From an uncultured Hoeflea sp. (lineage in GTDB: Bacteria > Pseudomonadota > Alphaproteobacteria > Rhizobiales > Rhizobiaceae): a stretch of DNA of 64,000 bases. The notes under the pieces were generated by a model, which was not told the origin of the DNA, did not search any database, and saw only the letters and a program-made list of their open reading frames with translations. The stretch covers positions 744,001-808,000 of the forward strand of contig NZ_CANMVK010000002.1 in assembly GCF_947501405.1 (NCBI RefSeq). The letters are read 5' to 3'. Of this stretch, positions 1 to 11,412 are shown one piece after another; within the stretch, counting starts at the first letter, position 1, and each line of letters begins with the position of its first letter. A program made the translations under genes and the position numbers.

Positions 1-426
1 GGTTTCGAAGTGATCCGCGGCTCCGGCGGACGCGACCAAGGCGCGGCATCGCGCAAGGGCGGCGTCAAGGCGCTGGTCGCCATGCGCTCTGCGCTCAAAT
101 CCGGCGTCAATGTCGTGATGATCGCCGACATCTCGAAGGGCGAGGTGCGCCAAGCGGGAGAGGGGATCGTCACCCTTGCCAAGATCTCGGGCCGTCCGAT
201 CGTGCCGGTGGCGCTGACAACCAGCCGCCGCCATGTGCTGGAAAAGACCTGGGACAAAACCACCATCAATTTGCCTTTCGGCCGTCGCTGCCTTCGGCTT
301 GCGCCGCCAATCCGGGTTGCCGCGGATGCCGGGGAACAAGAGATCGCCGAAGCTCGCGCCCGCGTCACCGCTGAGCTGAACCGGGTCACCGAGGAAGCCG
401 CGCGCGCGGTCGAGGCGCGGGCATGA
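1..426 (+). CDS. DUF374-family lysophospholipid acyltransferase-like protein, C-terminal part (5' truncated)
   Basis: The reading frame is open to the window edge; the GTG used by the ORF track at base 10 is internal, because in-frame codons for GFE precede it. The visible 141 residues carry the RGSGGRDQGAASRKGG block and a GRPIVPVAL strand typical of DUF374 proteins, which resemble lysophospholipid acyltransferases and may act on lipid A precursors at the inner membrane. The HX4D catalytic part would lie upstream, outside the window. The stop overlaps the waaA start (ATGA), so translation is probably coupled. The next two genes make KDO-lipid A, which supports an envelope lipid role. The exact substrate is unknown. 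Confidence 0.85.
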   Translation, partial: GFEVIRGSGGRDQGAASRKGGVKALVAMRSALKSGVNVVMIADISKGEVRQAGEGIVTLAKISGRPIVPVALTTSRRHVLEKTWDKTTINLPFGRRCLRLAPPIRVAADAGEQEIAEARARVTAELNRVTEEAARAVEARA

Positions 427-1766
427 GCCGCGGCTGGGCGCGCGCCGCGCTGGTGGGCTATCGCTGGTTCGGGGCGGGCATCTATCCGCTGCTCGGCCCC
501 TATTTGGCCATTCGCGCAGCCAAGGGCAAGGAAGAGCGCAGCCGCCGCAAGGAGCGCTATGGCCGCTCCCAGATCGCCCGGCCCGCGGGGCCGCTGGTCT
601 GGTTTCATGCCGCCAGCGTCGGTGAGACCAATGCGGTGGTGCCGTTGATCAAGGAAGTGCGGCGCCGTGGCATTTCCGTGGTGCTGACCACCGGAACCGT
701 AACATCGGCCGGCGTGGCGCGTGATCGTCTTGGCAGCGACGTGATACATCAATATGTGCCGCTCGACCTCAAGCCGGCGATCTCGCGGTTCCTCGATCAC
801 TGGAAGCCGGATCTGGCAATCATCGCCGAATCCGAAATCTGGCCGATGACCATTCTCGAACTGGGAGCCAGGCGAACCCCGCAGGTGCTGGTCAATGGCC
901 GGCTGTCGGACCGTTCTTTCGCGCGCTGGAGCAAGCGCCCGAGCCTGGCCGACGCCCTGTTTGAAAACCTATCCCACGTGGTGGCGCAGTCGGAACTTGA
1001 TGCGGAGCGATTCCTGCAGCTTGGCGCCCGGCCGGTCTCGGTCTCAGGCAATCTCAAGGTCGACACCACGCCGCCGCCTTTCGATCAGGATGAGCTTGCC
1101 CGGCTGCAGGCGCAGATCGGAAACCGGTCGACCTGGGCAGCGGTTTCGACCTCCGAGGGTGAGGATGAAATCGTCGCAGCGGTGCATCGCGCCATCAAAC
1201 CCAGACACAAGGCGCTGACCATTTTGGTGCCGCGCCATCCCGATCGCGCCGATGCGATCGAAACCATGCTCAAGGCCGAGGGCCTGACGGTTGCGCGAAG
1301 GTCACGCGGCGAGGAAATCGAAGCCGCCACCGACGTCTATCTTGGCGACACCATCGGCGAGATGGGGCTTTATCTCAATCTCACCGAAATCGTCTTTGTC
1401 GGAAAGTCGCTCAAAGGCGGTGGCGGGCAAAACCCGCTGGAACCGGCGATGCTTGGCTGCGCCGTGCTGTCGGGCAGCGAGGTCGGCAATTTCCGTGATG
1501 CCTATTCGCGGCTGATTAAAAATGGTGGCGCACGGTTTGTGCGCGATGGCGAGATGCTGGCCAAGGCCGTGCATTTTCTGCTGTCCAATCCCAAGGCCAG
1601 GCAGATCATGGCGGCCGGTGGCGAAAAGACTTTGAATGATATGCGCGGCGCCCTCAAGGCGACCATCCGCGAGCTCGAACCCTACATCAACCCGCTCACC
1701 GTCAAGGCGCGGCTGTTGCCGCGGGACAATGAGAGCGAGGATAGCCGTGCGAGCGGCCAATGGTAA
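423..1766 (+). CDS. waaA: 3-deoxy-D-manno-octulosonic acid (KDO) transferase
   Basis: A 447-residue protein that transfers KDO from CMP-KDO to lipid IVA at the cytoplasmic face of the inner membrane. The N-terminal third has the glycosyltransferase-N signature, including the FHAASVGETNAV block near residues 62-72. The C-terminal half has the GGGGQNPLEPA loop typical of WaaA/KdtA. The N-terminal hydrophobic stretch fits membrane anchoring. It overlaps the acyltransferase gene by 4 bp and lpxK by 7 bp, so the three form one lipid A operon. Whether it adds one or two KDO residues cannot be read from the sequence. Confidence 0.95.
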   Translation: MSRGWARAALVGYRWFGAGIYPLLGPYLAIRAAKGKEERSRRKERYGRSQIARPAGPLVWFHAASVGETNAVVPLIKEVRRRGISVVLTTGTVTSAGVARDRLGSDVIHQYVPLDLKPAISRFLDHWKPDLAIIAESEIWPMTILELGARRTPQVLVNGRLSDRSFARWSKRPSLADALFENLSHVVAQSELDAERFLQLGARPVSVSGNLKVDTTPPPFDQDELARLQAQIGNRSTWAAVSTSEGEDEIVAAVHRAIKPRHKALTILVPRHPDRADAIETMLKAEGLTVARRSRGEEIEAATDVYLGDTIGEMGLYLNLTEIVFVGKSLKGGGGQNPLEPAMLGCAVLSGSEVGNFRDAYSRLIKNGGARFVRDGEMLAKAVHFLLSNPKARQIMAAGGEKTLNDMRGALKATIRELEPYINPLTVKARLLPRDNESEDSRASGQW

Positions 1767-2788
1767 GCGAGGCGCCTCCTTTCTGGTGGCAGCGCCCCGG
1801 CGTTCAGTCGGCGCTGCTGTCGCCCATTGGATGGGTCTATGGCCGGGTGGCCCGGCGGATCATGGACAAGAAGGTCCGCAAGACCATAGATGCCGCCGTC
1901 ATCTGTGTCGGTAATTTCACGGTCGGGGGATCGGGCAAGACGCCCACGGCTCTGACACTGGCCGATGCGGCGATCGCCCGGGGGCTCAAGCCTGGGTTCC
2001 TCTCACGCGGTTATGGCGGCGCGGTGCGCCATGCACGGGCGGTGGATCTGGTCCGGGACACAGCCCGGCTGGTGGGTGATGAGCCGATGCTGCTTGCGCA
2101 AAAGGCCATCACCGTTGTTTCGGCTAACCGGGTTGAGGGCGCCGAACATTTGGTGGCCGAAGGCTGCGATCTGATCATTATGGATGACGGCTTTCAAAGT
2201 GCGTCGCTGGTGTTCGATCAGGCGCTGCTGGTGGTCGACGCCCGCCGCGGGATTGGCAACGGCCGGGTTTTTCCCGCCGGACCGGTGCGCGCACCGGTGA
2301 TCGACCAGGTTCGCCATGCCGATGCGCTGGTGGTGGTGGGCGAAGGCGATGGCGCCGATCCGATGATCCGCATGGCGGCGCGCGCGGCAAAGCCGATCCA
2401 TCTGTCGCGGCTTGAACCGCGCAATGCCGCGCAATTGCTCAATCAGAATTGTCTTGCCTTCGCGGCGATTGGCGACCCGGGTAAGTTTTTCGCGACCCTC
2501 GAACAGGCCAATGTGCGTATCGCCAGCCGGCGCGGGTTTCCCGATCACCATCATTTCGCAAGCGACGAAGTCGATGATCTGCTCGCCGAAGCCGAACTTT
2601 ACGGTCTGCAGCTCGTCACCACCTCCAAGGATCATGTGAGGTTGATGTCGGGCCATGGAAAGGCTCTTGAGCTTGCGCAAAAATGCGCAGTCCTTGACAT
2701 CGACATGGTGTTTGACAGCCCGCATGTGGCCGACGCCATTCTTGACGCGGCAATTGCGAGCTTCAAGCGCCGCAGGGCAGGCGTCTGA
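1760..2788 (+). CDS. lpxK: Tetraacyldisaccharide 4'-kinase
   Basis: LpxK phosphorylates the 4' position of the tetraacyldisaccharide 1-phosphate to give lipid IVA, the step before KDO transfer. The 342-residue protein has the family N-terminus (FWWQRPG), an early hydrophobic segment and the Walker A-like GGSGKTPTALTLAD near residues 57-70. It also has the LSRGYGG and IIMDDGFQS motifs, the latter supplying conserved acidic residues. The length is normal. The start overlaps the end of waaA, indicating coupled translation. The order waaA-lpxK-DUF2093-mutL is common in Rhizobiales, though DUF2093 and mutL are on the other strand here. Confidence 0.95.
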   Translation: MVSEAPPFWWQRPGVQSALLSPIGWVYGRVARRIMDKKVRKTIDAAVICVGNFTVGGSGKTPTALTLADAAIARGLKPGFLSRGYGGAVRHARAVDLVRDTARLVGDEPMLLAQKAITVVSANRVEGAEHLVAEGCDLIIMDDGFQSASLVFDQALLVVDARRGIGNGRVFPAGPVRAPVIDQVRHADALVVVGEGDGADPMIRMAARAAKPIHLSRLEPRNAAQLLNQNCLAFAAIGDPGKFFATLEQANVRIASRRGFPDHHHFASDEVDDLLAEAELYGLQLVTTSKDHVRLMSGHGKALELAQKCAVLDIDMVFDSPHVADAILDAAIASFKRRRAGV

Positions 2789-2794
2789 TCTGTT

Positions 2795-3022
2795 TTATGC
2801 CGGTTTCGGCAGGACGCCTGCGCGCTGGTCGGCGGTCACCGAGGCGACGACGTCGACATAGGGCTCCTGACGGGCCACGCTCCAATATTTGAGCTCTTCG
2901 ATTGGAATGGTCTCCCCGGTCACCGCGCAAACCACGTGACTGCCGGGCATCAGAATCTGGAAATCGCCGTCCAGATAGCGGATTTTTGCAGGGCGCGCGC
3001 CCGGACCTTCAAATCTGTTCAT
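2795..3022 (-). CDS. DUF2093 domain protein
   Basis: A 75-residue protein starting MNRFEGPG and containing the DUF2093 core (ARPAKIRYLDGDFQIL, then GETIPIEELKYWSVARQEPY). I start it nine codons inside the ORF-track call because the family begins at this Met and the upstream extension looks non-coding; neither start has a strong ribosome site. It converges on lpxK with a 6-bp gap and lies downstream of mutL on the same strand. Its function is unknown. The family is largely confined to Alphaproteobacteria and often lies between lpxK and mutL. Confidence 0.85.
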   Translation of the reverse strand: MNRFEGPGARPAKIRYLDGDFQILMPGSHVVCAVTGETIPIEELKYWSVARQEPYVDVVASVTADQRAGVLPKPA

Positions 3023-3198
3023 CTGGGGACATGCTCCCGTTGCAACCATTTTGTTCTATGCCGTCTCACGGCCGCGAATGCAAGATCGCTGGCCATGGAC
3101 CGGGCAACAGGATAGGCCGGGATGGCGTTTTCAGCGCGACCGGCTGGAACTCCGTCAATGATGATCTGTTGCTTCGCGGTTGGCTCATCGGCAGGCAT

Positions 3199-5031
3199 TT
3201 AACGCCGGGAAAACAGCTTCTCGATGTCGCTGAGTTTGAGCTCGATATAGGTCGGCCGGCCGTGATTGCACTGACCTGAACCAGGCGTACGCTCCATCTC
3301 GCGCAACAATGCGTTCATTTCTTCGCGCGCCAGCCGGCGCCCCGAGCGCACCGAGCCATGGCAGGCCATCGTCGAAGCCACCGCCTCGAGCCGGTCCTTC
3401 AGCCCGCCGGCGCTGTTCCATTCGGCTATCTCATCGGCCAGATCGCGGACCAACCCGACCACATCGGTTTCCCCCAGCATCGACGGCGTCTCCCGCACTG
3501 CCACTGCGCCTGGTCCGAAGCGTTCGAGCACCAGGCCGAAGCCGGCCAGCTCGTCGGCGCATTCGGCCAGCCGGTCGCAATCCTCTTCCGGCAGGTCGAT
3601 GATTTCCGGCAAAAGCAGCAATTGCGAGGCCACGGGGCCCGCGCGAAGTGCGGTCTTCAAACGCTCGAAAACCAGCCGTTCATGAGCGGCGTGCTGATCG
3701 ACGATCACCAGCCCGTCGCGGGTTTGGGCGAGAATGTAATTCTCATGCACCTGCGCCCGCGCAGCACCCAGGGGATGTTCGTCTTCCGGCGTCTCGGGGG
3801 TATCCCCATGATCGGCTTCCATACGCGCCGAAGGTGTGGCGGCAGCGGCAAATCCCGCCTGCGCTTCTTCCCCGAATCCCGTGCCTGCGCCATCGACTGG
3901 CCGGAACGGCGAACCTGCCGCTTCCCATCTGGCGTTTCCGCCCGTGGCGTAGGTCGGCGAACCCGGCGTGAAGGAGGCGGGCCGCTGCGATCCGCCTTGC
4001 GTGAAAGCCCGGGCAAGATCCGCCCGCGCCGATGGCGAGGCGCGGTCGCCGTCAGACAGCAGCGCCTGCCGGATAGCCCCGATGATCAACCCGCGAACCA
4101 GGCCGGGATCGCGAAATCGCACATCGGCCTTGGCCGGATGGACATTGACGTCGACCAGGGCCGGGTCGAGCGTGATCCAGAGGACAGTAACCGGATAGCG
4201 GCCGCGCGGCAGGCTGTCGGAATAGGCAGCGCGAATGGCCGAGAGAATCTGCTTGTCCTGCACCGGACGGCCGTTGACGAAGGCGTGCTGGGACAGCGAG
4301 TTGGCCTTGTTCCAGGTTGGCAGGCCGATATGGCCCGTCAAGCCGATCATCTCGCGCTCTGCGTCGAGCGCAATGGTATTGCCGGCAAACTCCGCACCCA
4401 GCACCTGCGCGATGCGCGCCAGCCGGTTCTCGCCAGTGGCCGGCAGATCCAAGGTGGAGCGGTCCGGCCCCGACAGCGTGAAGCGGATATGAGGAAAGGC
4501 AATGGCGATGCGCCGCACCACCTCGGTGATGGCGGCGGTTTCCGCCCGATCGCTTTTCAGGAATTTGAGCCGCGCCGGCGTGGCGAAAAACAGATCGCGC
4601 ACCTCCACCGTGGTGCCCTTGTTGGCCGCGGCGGGCTTGAGCGCCGAAGGCGCGCCGCCTGAAAGCGAGATCTCATGGGCATGGGCAGCATCCGCCGGGC
4701 GCGAGCGCAGCGTCAGCCGCGCCACCGAGCCGATCGAGGGCAGCGCCTCGCCGCGAAAACCAAGCGTGCGGATGTCTTCAAGTCCCTGGTCGATCTTCGA
4801 GGTGCAATGCCGGCGAACGGCGAGCTGAAGATCCTCGGCATCCATGCCGCGCCCGTCATCGATCACCCGGATCAGTGCCTTGCCGCCGCCGGCCGTGGCG
4901 ATCTCGATCCGGCTCGCGCCCGCGTCTATGGCGTTCTCGACCAATTCCTTGACCACGCTGGCCGGCCGTTCGATCACCTCGCCGGCGGCAATCTGATTGA
5001 TCAGTGTTTCTGGCAATTGATGGATGCGCAT
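3199..5031 (-). CDS. mutL: DNA mismatch repair protein MutL
   Basis: MutL couples mismatch recognition by MutS to strand removal. The start is [20 protein letters not shown], 43 codons inside the ORF-track call, because this is the universal MutL N-terminus; the protein is then 610 residues. The GHKL ATPase motifs are visible: [14 protein letters not shown] and GFRGEAL in the first 110 residues. A variable proline-rich linker follows. The C-terminal domain carries [12 protein letters not shown], the metal-dependent endonuclease motif present in MutL of bacteria lacking MutH. It is divergent from the PAS-receiver gene across a 295-bp spacer that holds a CtrA-type box. Confidence 0.96.
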
Positions 5032-5204
5032 TTTCCCATGTTGGCGGATTCGCAGCCGGACGCAATGCGGCCGGGCCCGGCGAGGCCGGTTTTTGCTTGT
5101 TGTCACCGGTTGATTGGAGTGTCGCGGGCAAAGCGGCAAAATTGCTTTGAGACCGCGCATCCGCGTGTGGTCAGCCGGCTCCTGCCACCATCTTGCAATT
5201 GTGG

Positions 5205-5220
5205 TTAAGCACGCCTTAAC
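5205..5220. promoter_or_regulatory. Predicted CtrA binding site (TTAA-N7-TTAAC)
   Basis: The sequence TTAAGCACGCCTTAAC matches the full alphaproteobacterial CtrA consensus TTAA-N7-TTAAC with no mismatch and sits in a GGTTAAGC/CCTTAACC dyad. It lies 107 bp upstream of the PAS-receiver start and 174 bp upstream of the divergent mutL start. Position and the signalling function downstream make the PAS-receiver gene the more likely target. This is inference from motif match only. Confidence 0.6.
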
Positions 5221-5326
5221 CCTCAGGTGGCATGCTTGTGGTCCCGGAAGGGCCTGGCGGCTTGAGTCCCAATTCCAAGGCGAAACCGGCGGCTTCCGGG
5301 GTTAAAGTGTTATCGGATCGAGAGTT

Positions 5327-7207
5327 ATGGACCTGAGTGAAACCGAGCCGCGCCTTTCGGGCAAGGACTGCAAGCTGATTGAAGCCCTGGCTTCCGCGCT
5401 CGATATTGCCATCACCGTCTATGACCGCCACGACACGCTGATTGCCGGCAGTCCGGAGTTCCTCCGCTTTTTCGATATCGATCCGGAACAGCTGCAGCCC
5501 GGTGCGCGGTTGCGCGACCTGCTGGCCGCTGCCTATGATTCCGGGGCACAGGTGCTCGGCTCCATGGACGGCCGCACCCGCAACATCAGCCGCGACGACT
5601 GGATTGCCGAGCGCATCGCCATTCACTGGCGCGAGCGCTACGAAAGCGTGGAAAAACTGCCCGATGACCGCTGGGTGCGGCTTTGCAAGCGTCGGATGCC
5701 CGACGGGTTGCTTGTTTCCACCATCTCCGACGTGTCCGAGCAAAAGCGCCGCGACCACGAATTGTCAGAGACCAGGCATCAGGCGGAACTCGCCCAGCAT
5801 ATTCTCGACAACCTCGCCAACCCGGTGATGGTCAAGGATTCCGCACTTCGCTACATCATCGTCAACGAGGCCTTCTGCCGGATTCCGGGACTTCACACCA
5901 AACAGGTTCTGGGCCGCACCGCGCGCGAACTGGTGGAGCCGGAGGTGGCCAATCATTTCGAAGCAGTCGAACGCGAGGTGCTCGAAACCGGCATTCCCTA
6001 TCAGACGACCGAGGACATTCACCGCGCCGACGGAACGATCATGCACGCAGTCACCCATGCGCGGCGTTCGGGCACGCCCGGCAATTACTTCGTCACGGTG
6101 TCTTTCGATGATGTTACCCATCTGGTGAAAAACCGTGCCTTCGAAGCCCGCGACACGTGGCGCTACGATCTTGAATGCACTGCGGCCGAACGAGATGAAG
6201 CAGCCGAACTGTATGACAGGGTTCTGGTTCTTGATGCCAATGCCCCCCGCGGCGGCAGGCGCGCCGCCAGCCTCCGCGCTACCGGATCAGACGCCGTTGC
6301 CATCAGTGACGCCGTGGAGGCTGTTGCTTTCCTTGATGCGGCGCGCAAAAGCGGCGCGCAGATTGACCATATCGAACTGTGCGAGTTGATGGCCGAATTG
6401 CTCGCCGAGATCCCCGATGCCGGCGATTACCCGGAACTGATTGCAGCCATGGACCGGGCTTCCAAGCAACCCAAGACAAAAACGAAATCGAAACCAGCAG
6501 CCGCGTCGGAGGTTTCCGGTCCCGGGCCAAGCGGCGCTGCACTCTCCGTCACCCCAACCGAGCCGCCATCGCTCGCCACACCCAAGGCGTCGCAGGCCGA
6601 TCCCAAAGCCTCCGGAGTGGAGACGGTCGCTGTAACCGTATCTCCAACGCCGGCTCCGGACACCGTTGTGCCTCCGGCCCCAACACCGGATGCAGCGCCG
6701 GACAAGGCGGCTTTGCCTGAGACGATCCCGAAGGTGCCGGATACGCTTGTCGACGCGCCGCCTGCACAGCCTGACGCAAACCGGGACAGCAAACCCGCGC
6801 CCAGTCGCCTGCGGGTGCTGGTCGCCGAGGACAATGATGTCAACCAGATCGTCTTCGAGCAGATCCTTGAGGGCATCGGCGTTGATTTCCGCATTGTCGA
6901 CAATGGCCAGGAGGCAGTCGCCGCCTGGCGCGCGGCACCGCCTGATTTGATCCTGATGGATGTGTCGATGCCGGTGATGAATGGCCTGCAGGCCGCACAG
7001 GCGATCCGCGATGCGGAAGCCCAGAGCGACAGCGGTGATCATCATATCCCGATCATTGCGGTCACCGCCCATGCCATGAGTGGCGACCGGGAGCGCTGTT
7101 TTGCCGCCGGAATGGATGATTACCTCTCAAAGCCGGTCAGCCCCGAAAAGCTTGAAGCCATCATCCGCAAGTGGATCGACTGCTCAAATGCGGTGTTGTC
7201 AGTGTAA
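5327..7207 (+). CDS. PAS-PAS-receiver protein without a histidine-kinase domain
   Basis: A 626-residue cytoplasmic protein with no signal peptide or membrane segment. A PAS domain (about 20-130, DIAITVYDRHDTLI) is followed by a second PAS domain (about 155-270, NPVMVKDSALRYIIVNEAFCR). A helical stretch and a long Pro/Ala/Thr-rich linker (about 380-490) precede a complete receiver domain (about 495-620). The receiver has the acidic pair in VAEDNDVN, phospho-acceptor D545 in LILMDVSMPVMNG, the TAHAMS threonine and lysine in YLSKPV, which is typical of hybrid-kinase receivers. No H-box or HATPase motif is present, so it must be phosphorylated by another protein. An upstream CtrA box suggests cell-cycle control. 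Its output is unknown. Confidence 0.85.
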   Translation: MDLSETEPRLSGKDCKLIEALASALDIAITVYDRHDTLIAGSPEFLRFFDIDPEQLQPGARLRDLLAAAYDSGAQVLGSMDGRTRNISRDDWIAERIAIHWRERYESVEKLPDDRWVRLCKRRMPDGLLVSTISDVSEQKRRDHELSETRHQAELAQHILDNLANPVMVKDSALRYIIVNEAFCRIPGLHTKQVLGRTARELVEPEVANHFEAVEREVLETGIPYQTTEDIHRADGTIMHAVTHARRSGTPGNYFVTVSFDDVTHLVKNRAFEARDTWRYDLECTAAERDEAAELYDRVLVLDANAPRGGRRAASLRATGSDAVAISDAVEAVAFLDAARKSGAQIDHIELCELMAELLAEIPDAGDYPELIAAMDRASKQPKTKTKSKPAAASEVSGPGPSGAALSVTPTEPPSLATPKASQADPKASGVETVAVTVSPTPAPDTVVPPAPTPDAAPDKAALPETIPKVPDTLVDAPPAQPDANRDSKPAPSRLRVLVAEDNDVNQIVFEQILEGIGVDFRIVDNGQEAVAAWRAAPPDLILMDVSMPVMNGLQAAQAIRDAEAQSDSGDHHIPIIAVTAHAMSGDRERCFAAGMDDYLSKPVSPEKLEAIIRKWIDCSNAVLSV

Positions 7208-7465: not shown

Positions 7466-8833
7466 ATGACACCCGAGATTGAAATTCAGGACTCATTGTC
7501 CCCGGGCGCCAAAGCGGTGGCCTACACCGATCCTTTGACGGGATTGGGCAATCGCCGTCGGCTGATGGACAAGATCCGCAAGCTTGCCTCCGAGCGCGCC
7601 GACGATCCGGCGCCGTTCACCATCGGCGTTGCCAACATCGACGGCTTCAAACCGATCAACGATCTGTTCGGCCACGCCGCCGGCGACGAAATCCTTTGCC
7701 AGGTGGCGCACCGGCTGAGAGCCTGCCTGCCCGATGGCGGCTTCGTGGCCCGCATTGAAAGTGATGAATTTGCCTTTGTGCTGCCGCTGGTGTTTGAAAA
7801 AAAGGGCGCCGAAAAAATCGGCCGGATGTTCAAGGACGTACTTTCCGCACCCTATGATCTGGGCGACCGCAACGTGCGTCTGTCGGCGTCCTTTGGTTTC
7901 GCGGTCTATCCCTTTGCCGGTGAGCAATTCGCTGAACTGCTCAAAAGCGCCGACACCGCGCTCTACCGCTCCAAACGCCGCGGGCGTGGGCAGATCACCG
8001 TCTATTCGGAAGAAATCGCCGAGGAAATGCGCCGCGGCACGCAGATCGAACAGGCGCTGCGCCGCGCAATCATCGCCGATGAAGTGGCGGTGCATTTCCA
8101 GCCGATCGTCAATTTGGCCGACGCCTCGATCCAGGGCTTCGAGGCGCTGGCGCGATGGACCGATCGCGAACTTGGCTTCGTCTCGCCCGGCGTGTTCATT
8201 CCGCTTGCCGAAGAGCGCGGCTTTATCGACTCGCTGACCGAGACCCTGCTCAAGAAAGCCGCAGAAACGGCCAAGCACTGGCCGTCGGAAATGTTCCTGT
8301 CGTTCAATCTGTCCTCGGCGCAACTGATCGACCCGGCCACCGCCTTCAACGTGCTGGCTATTGTCAACCGCGTTGGGCTCGACCCGCGCCGGTTGGAACT
8401 GGAAATCACCGAAACTGCAATGATGAGCGATCCGGAAATCGCGGCCAAGGTGGTCAATGAGCTTCATTCCATCGGGGTGCGGGTGTCGCTCGATGATTTC
8501 GGAACCGGGCAGTCGAGCCTTGGACGGTTGCGCGATTTCGCCTTCAACAAGGTCAAGATCGACCGCAGCTTTGTCAGCGAAATCACCGCCGACAAATCCG
8601 CCGAACATATAATCCGCGCCATACTGACCATGTGCGAAGGGCTCAATCTCAAGGTCATTGCCGAAGGCATTGAAACCGAGGAGCAGGCCGAGATGCTCAA
8701 GGCGCTTGGTTGCCGGTCCGGGCAGGGGTGGCTCTATGGCAAGGCGGTCGATGCCGCCTCGACCTTCCGCCTGATCGAGGCGCAGCAGCAGGTTCAGACC
8801 AAATCCGCCCAAGTCTATCTGATCAATCGCTGA
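7466..8833 (+). CDS. GGDEF-EAL protein, likely cyclic-di-GMP phosphodiesterase with degenerate GGDEF site
   Basis: A 455-residue soluble protein with a GGDEF domain (about 20-180) and an EAL domain (about 195-440). The active-site signature of the GGDEF domain reads ESDEF at residues 98-102, so cyclase activity is unlikely, though a GTP-binding regulatory role remains possible. The EAL domain looks complete: EAL at 226-228, ELEITET, DDFGTGQSSL, KIDRSFV and IAEGIETEEQ. The expected activity is hydrolysis of c-di-GMP. There is no transmembrane or sensory domain, only a short N-terminus. The 258-bp spacer upstream shows nothing I can name. The stop abuts the convergent lysR gene. Confidence 0.9.
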   Translation: MTPEIEIQDSLSPGAKAVAYTDPLTGLGNRRRLMDKIRKLASERADDPAPFTIGVANIDGFKPINDLFGHAAGDEILCQVAHRLRACLPDGGFVARIESDEFAFVLPLVFEKKGAEKIGRMFKDVLSAPYDLGDRNVRLSASFGFAVYPFAGEQFAELLKSADTALYRSKRRGRGQITVYSEEIAEEMRRGTQIEQALRRAIIADEVAVHFQPIVNLADASIQGFEALARWTDRELGFVSPGVFIPLAEERGFIDSLTETLLKKAAETAKHWPSEMFLSFNLSSAQLIDPATAFNVLAIVNRVGLDPRRLELEITETAMMSDPEIAAKVVNELHSIGVRVSLDDFGTGQSSLGRLRDFAFNKVKIDRSFVSEITADKSAEHIIRAILTMCEGLNLKVIAEGIETEEQAEMLKALGCRSGQGWLYGKAVDAASTFRLIEAQQQVQTKSAQVYLINR

Positions 8834-9751
8834 TCAACGACTGGTTTCCTGGCCCTCCTTGATCAGCCAGTCCAGAACCTTGTCGGTCTGCGGCGTAAGT
8901 TTGCGCCCCTTGGGCCAGATCACATAAAACGCAGCGCCTGTTTTCAGGCTGTGCGTCGTGACCCGTTGCAAAAGCCCGGTGGAAATCAGCCGGCCGGTCA
9001 AATGGCGCCAGGCCAGCGCCACGCCCTGGCTTTCCATGACTGCCTGGATCACCAGTACATAATCATTGATCGCCAGGCCGCGATTGGCGGTCGCGCCATT
9101 GACGCCGGCGCTGACAAACCATTGCTGCCAGTCGCAGGCGGTGCGGAACGGTTCCTCAAGATGGATCAGTCTGTGTTGTGTAAGATGGGCAGCGGTTTCG
9201 GGTTGTCCGTGCTTTTCCACATAGGCAGCGCTTGCCACCGCATCGATGATCTCCGGCGCAATCAGCGCGCTGTCGTAGTTGGGCCAGTCCTCGGGCCGGC
9301 CGCCGCGCACGCCCAGTTCAATGGCCTCGGTGCGGATGTCGAGATCGCGGTCGGCGGTCTGGATTCTCAAATCGATGTCGGGCAGATCATCGCGCAGCCG
9401 GTGCAGCCTTGGCAGCATCCAGAAAGAGGCAAATGCGGTTGAGGCGGCCAGCGTCACGCTGCTGGGCTTGCCGCGGGCGCGAATATCCTCGGCCGATTTG
9501 CGAATATGGCTCAATCCGAGGGTGACATCGGCGTGAAAGCGTCGCCCGGCTTCTGTCAGTGCCACGGCGCGATGGGCGCGCTGAAACAACGAAGCGCCCA
9601 ACTGGGTCTCCAGAGACCTAATGGCGTAGCTGACCGCGGCTTGCGTCATGCCCAGCTCCCGCGCCGCCCGGGTGAAACTCGCATGACGGCCGGCCGCCTC
9701 GAAGACAATCAGATTGCCCGCAGAGGGCAGCAGATGGCGCAGGTTATCCAT
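8834..9751 (-). CDS. LysR-family transcriptional regulator (GcvA-like)
   Basis: A 305-residue LysR regulator with an N-terminal winged helix (ASFTRAARELGMTQAAVSYAIRSLETQLG) and a C-terminal co-inducer domain of the GcvA type. It is divergent from the mttB-like gene with only 86 bp between start codons, so it very probably controls the mttB-oxidoreductase pair and itself. A LysR-type box overlaps its own start codon. The inducer cannot be read from sequence; a methylated amine or betaine is the natural guess from the neighbours. Its stop touches the convergent GGDEF-EAL gene. Confidence 0.9.
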   Translation of the reverse strand: MDNLRHLLPSAGNLIVFEAAGRHASFTRAARELGMTQAAVSYAIRSLETQLGASLFQRAHRAVALTEAGRRFHADVTLGLSHIRKSAEDIRARGKPSSVTLAASTAFASFWMLPRLHRLRDDLPDIDLRIQTADRDLDIRTEAIELGVRGGRPEDWPNYDSALIAPEIIDAVASAAYVEKHGQPETAAHLTQHRLIHLEEPFRTACDWQQWFVSAGVNGATANRGLAINDYVLVIQAVMESQGVALAWRHLTGRLISTGLLQRVTTHSLKTGAAFYVIWPKGRKLTPQTDKVLDWLIKEGQETSR

Positions 9752-9764: not shown

Positions 9765-9837
9765 TCAAAAGCACAGAATTTTCCAGCATTACATCGGCTC
9801 GCGCCTTCACTAGATTGGCATGAGGGAGGAACCGGTC

Positions 9838-11412
9838 ATGGATACTGTCGACACGATCGAGCCGGGTGTTTCAAAGTCGCGCAGGCGCGAACGCGGGGGA
9901 GGGCGCGAGGGGCGCCGCTCAGCCGGGCAGGCCTTCGCGCCGCCCCACCGCGCCACGCCCTATATTGTCCGCAACATTCCCGCCTATGATGTTCTGGGTG
10001 AAGAGAGTTTGCTCAAGATCGAAGCCACGGCCGACCGCCTTCTTGCCGAAGTCGGCATCGAGTTTCGCGATGATCCCGCGGCTTTGGAACTGTGGAAAGC
10101 CGCCGGCGCGCAAGTTGAAGGGCTACTGGTCAGGTTCGAACCAGGCATGCTGCGCGAAATCCTGAAATCGGCGCCCGCCAGTTTCACGCAGCATGCCCGC
10201 AATCCGGCCAATAATGTCGAGATCGGCGGCCGCAATGTTGTGTTCGCGCCCGCTTACGGATCGCCCTTTGTGATGGATCTCGACAAGGGGCGTCGCTATG
10301 GCACCATCGAGGACTTCCGCAACTTCATCAAGCTGGCGCAATCAAGCCCCTGGCTGCACCATTCCGGCGGAACCATCTGCGAGCCGGTCGACGTTCCGGT
10401 CAACAAGCGCCATCTCGATATGGTCTATGCGCATCTGAAATACTCCGACCGCTGCTTCATGGGTTCGGTGACCGCCGAAAGCCGTGCGGAGGAGTCGATC
10501 GATATGGCACGGATCGTCTTTGGTCGCGATTTCGTCGACCGGAACTGCGTCATCCTGGGCAATGTCAACGTCAATTCGCCGCTGGTCTGGGACGGCACCA
10601 TGACCAACGTGCTGCGCGCCTATGCGCGCGCCAATCAGGCCACCGTGGTGGTGCCCTTTATCCTCGGCGGCGCCATGGGTCCGGTGACCACTGCGGGAGC
10701 CATTGCCCAGGCACTGGCCGAAACCATGGCCGGTTGTGCGCTGACCCAGCTTGAGCGCAAGGGTGCGCCGGTGATTTTCGGCAATTTTCTGTCATCGATG
10801 TCGTTGCGGTCCGGCTCGCCAACCTTCGGTACCCCTGAACCGGCAATCGGTTCGATGGTGATCGGTCAGTTGGCACGGCGGCTGAACCTGCCTTTGCGCT
10901 GTGCGGGAAGTTTCTCGAATTCCAAGCTGCCCGATGCGCAGGCGATGAACGAGGGCACCATGTCGATGCTGTCGGCGGTGCATTGCGGGGCGAATTTCAT
11001 TCTCCACTCGGCAGGCTTTCTCGACGGGCTCTTGTCGATGTCCTATGAGAAATTCGTCATGGACGCTGATTTCTGCGGCGCGCTGCACTCCTATCTTGCC
11101 GGCGTGGTGGTCGATGACAACTCGCTCGCGCTTGACGCCTTCCGGGAAGTGGGCGTCGGCAAGCATTTCCTCGGATGCGCCCACACGATGGAGAATTACC
11201 AGACCGCATTCTGGGATTCGACCATCGCCGACAATGAGCCCTTTGAGAAATGGGACACGGCCGGACGCATCGACGCCGCTACCCGCGCCAATGCGCGCTG
11301 GAAGCAGATGCTCGGCGATTATCAGGCGCCGCCGATGGATGTGGCGACAGACGAGGCGCTGATCGAATACACTGAGCGCACAAAGGCTTCCCAGCCCGAC
11401 GCATGGTATTGA
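9838..11412 (+). CDS. MttB-family (non-pyrrolysine) methyltransferase
   Basis: A 524-residue member of the trimethylamine methyltransferase superfamily. I start at MDTVDT rather than the ORF-track Met because a GGGAGGA ribosome site lies just before it. The TIM-barrel signature is seen in YGTIEDFRNFIKLAQ, SGGTICEPVDVP and ALTQLERKGAPVIFGNF. The whole frame is sense-coded with no internal TAG, so it lacks the pyrrolysine of true TMA methyltransferases. Such proteins include glycine-betaine and proline-betaine methyltransferases that pass methyl to a corrinoid protein. No corrinoid-binding protein gene is nearby. A flavin N-demethylase follows 21 bp downstream. The substrate is probably a quaternary amine or betaine. 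Confidence 0.85.
   Translation: MDTVDTIEPGVSKSRRRERGGGREGRRSAGQAFAPPHRATPYIVRNIPAYDVLGEESLLKIEATADRLLAEVGIEFRDDPAALELWKAAGAQVEGLLVRFEPGMLREILKSAPASFTQHARNPANNVEIGGRNVVFAPAYGSPFVMDLDKGRRYGTIEDFRNFIKLAQSSPWLHHSGGTICEPVDVPVNKRHLDMVYAHLKYSDRCFMGSVTAESRAEESIDMARIVFGRDFVDRNCVILGNVNVNSPLVWDGTMTNVLRAYARANQATVVVPFILGGAMGPVTTAGAIAQALAETMAGCALTQLERKGAPVIFGNFLSSMSLRSGSPTFGTPEPAIGSMVIGQLARRLNLPLRCAGSFSNSKLPDAQAMNEGTMSMLSAVHCGANFILHSAGFLDGLLSMSYEKFVMDADFCGALHSYLAGVVVDDNSLALDAFREVGVGKHFLGCAHTMENYQTAFWDSTIADNEPFEKWDTAGRIDAATRANARWKQMLGDYQAPPMDVATDEALIEYTERTKASQPDAWY

Follow-up and report, generated by a model that had tools for sequence, protein, structure and literature searches.

A CtrA-type promoter conserved upstream of a kinase-less PAS-receiver gene and its GGDEF-EAL neighbour in part of the Rhizobiaceae

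Our analysis of a 64,000-nucleotide stretch of DNA (hereafter the window) from an uncultured Hoeflea sp., by its nearest named relatives a Hoeflea-like member of the Rhizobiaceae, centred on an ATG-initiated gene of the forward strand (positions 5327 to 7207, ORF call and Pfam), termed here PAS-REC, whose 626-residue product is best read as an old derivative of a hybrid histidine kinase with the order PAS-PAS-(kinase lost)-REC1*-REC2, the first receiver being degenerate and the second intact. Judging from the promoter and its conservation, this gene and the neighbouring GGDEF-EAL gene are very probably switched on by CtrA. An earlier note made from the letters of this DNA had proposed a CtrA-controlled PAS-PAS-receiver protein lacking a kinase; it overlooked both the degenerate receiver within the linker and the downstream GGDEF-EAL gene with its intact phosphodiesterase motifs.

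The sequence upstream of PAS-REC strongly supports a CtrA-activated promoter. CtrA is known to activate transcription from boxes of the TTAA-N7-TTAA type. The exact TTAA-N7-TTAAC box reported previously is indeed present at 5205-5220 (TTAAGCACGCCTTAAC), leaving 106 bases before the ATG, and none of 100 dinucleotide-shuffled versions of the window contained a match to it. Addition of the preceding G turns the pattern match into a perfect palindrome, GTTAA-N7-TTAAC (5204-5220; GTTAAG-CACGC-CTTAAC), which matches both strands. Genome-wide, the 16-base pattern gave 29 matches against 15 for a reversed control, and the box alone is therefore modest evidence. At a fixed spacing, 8 nt past the TTAA of the box, lies an extended −10 element on the forward strand, TGG-CATGCT (TG-N-NAT-NN-T; 5228-5236), which is conserved in the orthologues: in an alignment of 36 non-redundant loci anchored on the box, whose eight bases are fixed there by construction and whose spacer is variable, the TG was retained in 35 sequences, and both A2 and T6 of the hexamer in all 36. 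The composite of box and extended −10 was recovered in 84 of 85 orthologous loci and has a single occurrence in the 4.45-Mb genome. Transcription is predicted to start at position 5243 (+), about 7 nt past the −10 element, and relative to this start the box would cover about −38 to −23, over the −35 region, a position that fits an activator whose site overlaps the −35. No promoter was returned when this stretch was scanned with a simple sigma-70 search, as expected if the box replaces the −35. The genome encodes CtrA (NF045991, 423.5 bits against an NCBIfam cut-off of 350) and ChpT (304 bits, above the NCBIfam cut-off). At one locus of this genome (L223, G000:C4:32500-37500), ctrA (1486-2229, +), a lone receiver gene (2405-2767, −) and chpT (3144-3986, −) form a cluster.

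Each of the 85 orthologous loci examined has an exact TTAA-N7-TTAA box no more than 500 bp upstream of the PAS gene. The loci represent about 82 distinct genomes, three of them counted twice, from Hoeflea, Pseudohoeflea, Ensifer/Sinorhizobium, Pararhizobium, some Rhizobium and Mycoplana; elsewhere in them, over 1.04 Mb, there was no further copy. When the upstream sequences of 36 non-redundant loci were shuffled, a mean of only 0.05 loci had a box, so that its occurrence is far above chance; the loci are not phylogenetically independent, but spacer and flanks are nonetheless widely variable. Box-to-ATG distances among the orthologues are approximate, because their start codons were picked by rule. 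The earlier note had staked its proposal on a box that should recur upstream of orthologues, and this is what we observed. In one Rhizobium group (L085, L088-L095) the box GTTAAGCACGCCTTAAG is identical throughout, spacer included, and shares 16 of 17 bases with the window palindrome, the proteins being only about 40% identical to that of the window.

The palindromic box sits between divergent genes, PAS-REC and mutL (3199-5031, reverse strand, identified by ORF call and from the orthologous loci), and might on that account serve mutL rather than the PAS-REC operon, a reading to which we give hardly any credence. In five loci (L027, L028, L029, L031 and L066) mutL is 1.3-1.7 kb away, and the box still lies 153-255 bp from the PAS gene. 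Conversely, in two genomes where mutL adjoins the GGDEF-EAL gene and the PAS gene is missing (L207 and L211) the box is absent, as it is from a further 14 GGDEF-EAL neighbourhoods that have no PAS gene, including one that ends early at a contig end. Retention of the box when mutL is distant and its loss when the PAS gene is missing indicate that it belongs with the PAS gene, towards which the −10 element is directed in 84 of 85 loci; a role as a mutL element is thereby largely refuted. The five loci with a distant mutL carry about 1.0-1.3 kb of extra DNA between mutL and the PAS gene, and in the genome of L031 (L010/L015) this DNA contains an ORF that, by eye, resembles a glycerate kinase gene.

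Control of the PAS-REC family by CtrA is not new, since SMc00888 of Sinorhizobium meliloti has been published as CtrA-regulated. SMc00888 and SMc00887 form an operon that is reported to be regulated by CtrA and CbrA and to carry a CtrA motif ahead of SMc00888 (PMC11500502, PMC4414408), although the direction of the CbrA effect conflicts between text and figure legend in one of these reports (decreased versus increased; PMC11500502), and the SMc00887-888 operon has been likened to pleD-divK (PMC4414408). SMc00888 is almost certainly the counterpart of PAS-REC in S. meliloti and its orthologue, an assignment reached by elimination in strain 4H41 (L064) and from the position of the 5′-UTR, not from an annotated locus tag. 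In this strain a receiver gene lies directly upstream of a same-strand GGDEF gene only at divK-pleD and at the PAS-REC locus, the latter bearing the box, and a third receiver/GGDEF neighbourhood has the opposite order and no box. Synteny of mutL, PAS-REC and GGDEF-EAL holds in 4H41, as does full-length homology, and the promoter rule applied to S. meliloti would set the start at about −235, where the SMc00888 5′-UTR probe (−236 to −188; PMC4414408) begins. The two loci share a mutL gene divergent from PAS-REC, the GGDEF-EAL gene following PAS-REC, the CtrA box and the −10 element, with an identity of about 39% over the aligned part of the PAS-REC proteins. In the literature we found, SMc00888 appears only as a receiver-domain protein or DivK homologue, and its lost kinase, degenerate receiver and promoter architecture are not described. 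Phylogenetic footprinting, the presence of CtrA and ChpT in the genome and the published CtrA/CbrA regulation of this almost certainly orthologous gene together uphold the CtrA control that had been proposed from the sequence.

The two PAS domains and the complete receiver previously recognized in the protein were confirmed by Pfam and by an AlphaFold2 model built with 36 orthologues as input. The first PAS domain (PAS_7, Pfam match aa 25-143; delimited here as aa 12-136, 5360-5734, +) is modelled with pLDDT values mostly of ~87-97, dropping to 68-78 around aa 71-90, and the second (PAS_4, aa 160-264; 5804-6118, +) with values of ~96; the intact receiver occupies aa 496-618 at the C terminus (6812-7180, +; Pfam match aa 497-613), with D545 as phospho-acceptor. 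Mean pairwise identity is about 60% for this receiver and about 50% for each PAS domain, and the reading frame is open in all orthologues examined. The claim that a kinase is lacking also stands, as Pfam found neither HisKA nor HATPase in the window protein, nor in 36 orthologues at E<=1, and the kinase-less PAS-PAS-receiver order holds in all orthologues. By contrast, the long Pro-rich linker that had been described between the PAS domains and the receiver is only partly such: aa ~384-489 (6476-6793, +) are indeed Pro/Ala-rich and disordered (pLDDT <50), whereas aa ~296-380 (6212-6466, +) fold with pLDDT ~95 into a degenerate receiver, recognized by hhalign and by its fold match. A degenerate kinase, which the earlier note had considered might be hidden there, was not found by search; this region contains the degenerate receiver instead. 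Its order in the model is beta-alpha-beta-alpha-beta, and the corresponding domain from S. meliloti, modelled alone, had receivers and nothing else as its top 50 PDB hits. Most of its phosphorylation residues are lost, the acidic pair being gone in most orthologues; in the window protein a C occupies the phospho-Asp position, and the half of the fold expected to bear the Lys is missing from the model. As judged from these residues, its phospho-site chemistry is lost and it does not qualify as a phospho-accepting receiver. Intact receivers, in turn, accept phosphate, and in REC2 all 81 orthologues compared keep E501, D502, D545 and K602. At position 580, where the window protein has T, 68 of them carry T, 12 carry L and one carries V; the 12 orthologues with L retain the other phosphorylation residues. 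Replacement of T580 by L or V in these 13 of 81 sequences could weaken switching.

Several lines of comparison connect the protein with the tandem-receiver PAS hybrid histidine kinases of the Rhizobiaceae. In hhalign, the degenerate receiver aligned with the first receiver of 16 such kinases at a probability of 98.8 (E 1.3e-16), as against 1.4 (E 0.037) for their second receiver and 7.7 for the REC2 of its own chain. Like the window protein, these kinases carry PAS_7 followed by PAS_4, then a first receiver, a Pro-rich linker and a second receiver, but they also possess HisKA, HATPase, extra PAS domains and an intact first receiver, all absent from the window protein; a paralogue from the same genome (G000:C2, L128) shows the general order PAS_7, PAS_4, HisKA, HATPase, REC1, REC2. 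The closest own-genome relatives of REC2 are likewise the second receivers of hybrid kinases (51% and 48%), and in a tree of both receivers a branch with support 96/84 separates the kinase-less proteins from the rest. A tree of REC2 alone with distant outgroups was long-branched, did not resolve a single origin and was left out for the question of origin. Internal loss of the kinase core is the simplest reading of these data. At L210 (G034:C46) a full PAS-HisKA-HATPase-REC-REC hybrid kinase gene (331-3705) is located directly upstream of a GGDEF-EAL orthologue (4113 onward), in the slot held elsewhere by the kinase-less gene and with no CtrA box. This kinase clusters with other hybrids, and as a candidate for the direct ancestor it is only suggestive.

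The GGDEF-EAL gene (7466-8833, +; ORF call, Pfam and motif check) encodes a 455-residue protein with intact EAL motifs and a degenerate GGDEF motif (ESDEF). EAL domains degrade c-di-GMP, and the partner is accordingly predicted, from its motifs, to be a c-di-GMP phosphodiesterase. Orthologous proteins present the tested EAL signatures together with further EAL-domain motifs, and in most of them the GGDEF motif is degenerate. The protein begins almost at the GGDEF domain, which leaves it without a sensory region. Its gene directly follows PAS-REC at all orthologous loci examined; the genus sample includes one genome (G097) in which the two genes are near but not adjacent. The intervening gap is 258 bp in the window and about 74-360 bp in most loci, and in three loci of the S. 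meliloti/medicae group the genes overlap by 4 nt. Co-expression of the pair is probable, and a separate promoter for the GGDEF-EAL gene within the 258-bp gap of the window is possible. Homologues of GGDEF-EAL occur in many genera lacking the PAS-REC gene, which argues that the enzyme does not need PAS-REC and that the PAS gene either joined the arrangement later or was lost from it. Beyond the operon lie a gene for a GcvA/choline-sulfate-type LysR regulator (8834-9751) and, divergent from it, one for a homologue of MttB-family trimethylamine methyltransferases (9820-11412).

Taking these data together, PAS-REC would head an operon that CtrA activates and that part of the Rhizobiaceae has conserved, in which CtrA~P, bound to the box over the −35 region, may recruit the polymerase to the extended −10 promoter, so that PAS-REC and the putative phosphodiesterase would both be made in the CtrA-active phase. 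The PAS_7-PAS_4 module would act as the sensor, the vestigial receiver would probably be retained as a structural adaptor, followed by the flexible linker, and the intact REC2 would be phosphorylated in trans. Paralogous tandem-receiver hybrid kinases are the leading candidates for phosphodonor, as REC2 is closest to their second receivers. The conserved operon with a predicted c-di-GMP phosphodiesterase favours a switch whose target is that enzyme or the c-di-GMP output, and the PAS signal and REC2 phosphorylation could, perhaps by contact between the two proteins, tune the co-expressed enzyme. We give about an even chance to this reading, in which a kinase-less receiver, expressed upon activation by CtrA~P and phosphorylated in trans, tunes the c-di-GMP phosphodiesterase made with it. 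The resulting c-di-GMP might feed back on CckA/CtrA; in vitro, c-di-GMP shifts S. meliloti CckA into its phosphatase mode (PMC11500502). More tentatively, the excision of the kinase could have converted a hybrid kinase into a trans-acting regulatory subunit of the phosphodiesterase, with CtrA turning on the pair and closing a loop from CtrA through c-di-GMP and CckA back to CtrA, specific to part of the Rhizobiaceae, through which an environmental PAS signal would adjust the cell cycle.

Other roles for the protein can be envisaged. The invariant phospho-acceptor residues, the lack of an output domain and the similarity of REC2 to the second receivers of own-genome hybrid kinases would all suit a phosphate sink or decoy without output of its own, in which REC2 competes for phosphoryl groups with those paralogous receivers, or with DivK/CtrA at ChpT/CckA. 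A pure sink would need neither two conserved PAS domains (~50% mean pairwise identity) nor a constant phosphodiesterase neighbour, which count against it, and we regard this role as unlikely. Equally doubtful is a direct kinase modulator, whose receiver would bind a kinase such as CckA or DivL and inhibit or activate it in a CtrA feedback loop. Its model is Osp of Rhodobacter sphaeroides, a receiver protein that CtrA activates and whose gene has a CtrA-like site in the control region. Osp inhibits CckA, has no acidic pair and acts without being phosphorylated (PMC9430884); it was the sole analogue retrieved in a literature search for kinase-less PAS-receiver proteins under CtrA. Osp resembles the window protein as a kinase-less receiver protein under CtrA control, and the response of the S. 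meliloti orthologue to CbrA/CtrA would agree with such a function. Unlike the window protein, however, Osp is a single domain without PAS domains, is not phosphorylated, belongs to another bacterial order and has no phosphodiesterase partner, and the invariance of E501, D502, D545 and K602 counts against a purely Osp-like mode. The loss of the kinase and the degeneration of the first receiver could also be taken as the decay of a pseudo-hybrid of little function, a view rendered highly improbable by a frame open in all orthologues examined, by the conservation of REC2 (~60%) and the PAS domains (~50%), and by a promoter conserved across genera.

The trans-phosphorylated receiver tuning a co-expressed phosphodiesterase, our preferred reading, recalls the PleD/DivK operon, which shares the logic of a receiver plus a degenerate receiver and the link to c-di-GMP; PleD carries its GGDEF domain on the same chain, whereas in the present operon the GGDEF-EAL protein is distinct from the receiver protein, which has PAS domains in addition. 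With these results, a CtrA target that was only loosely annotated in S. meliloti becomes part of a defined protein family, for which a likely evolutionary source, the precise promoter and a constant partner can be named. The family offers an example of a hybrid kinase that appears to have lost its kinase and yet, as a regulated receiver, to have been maintained in many genera and, if the link to its partner is true, it would provide a concrete route for the control of c-di-GMP by CtrA.
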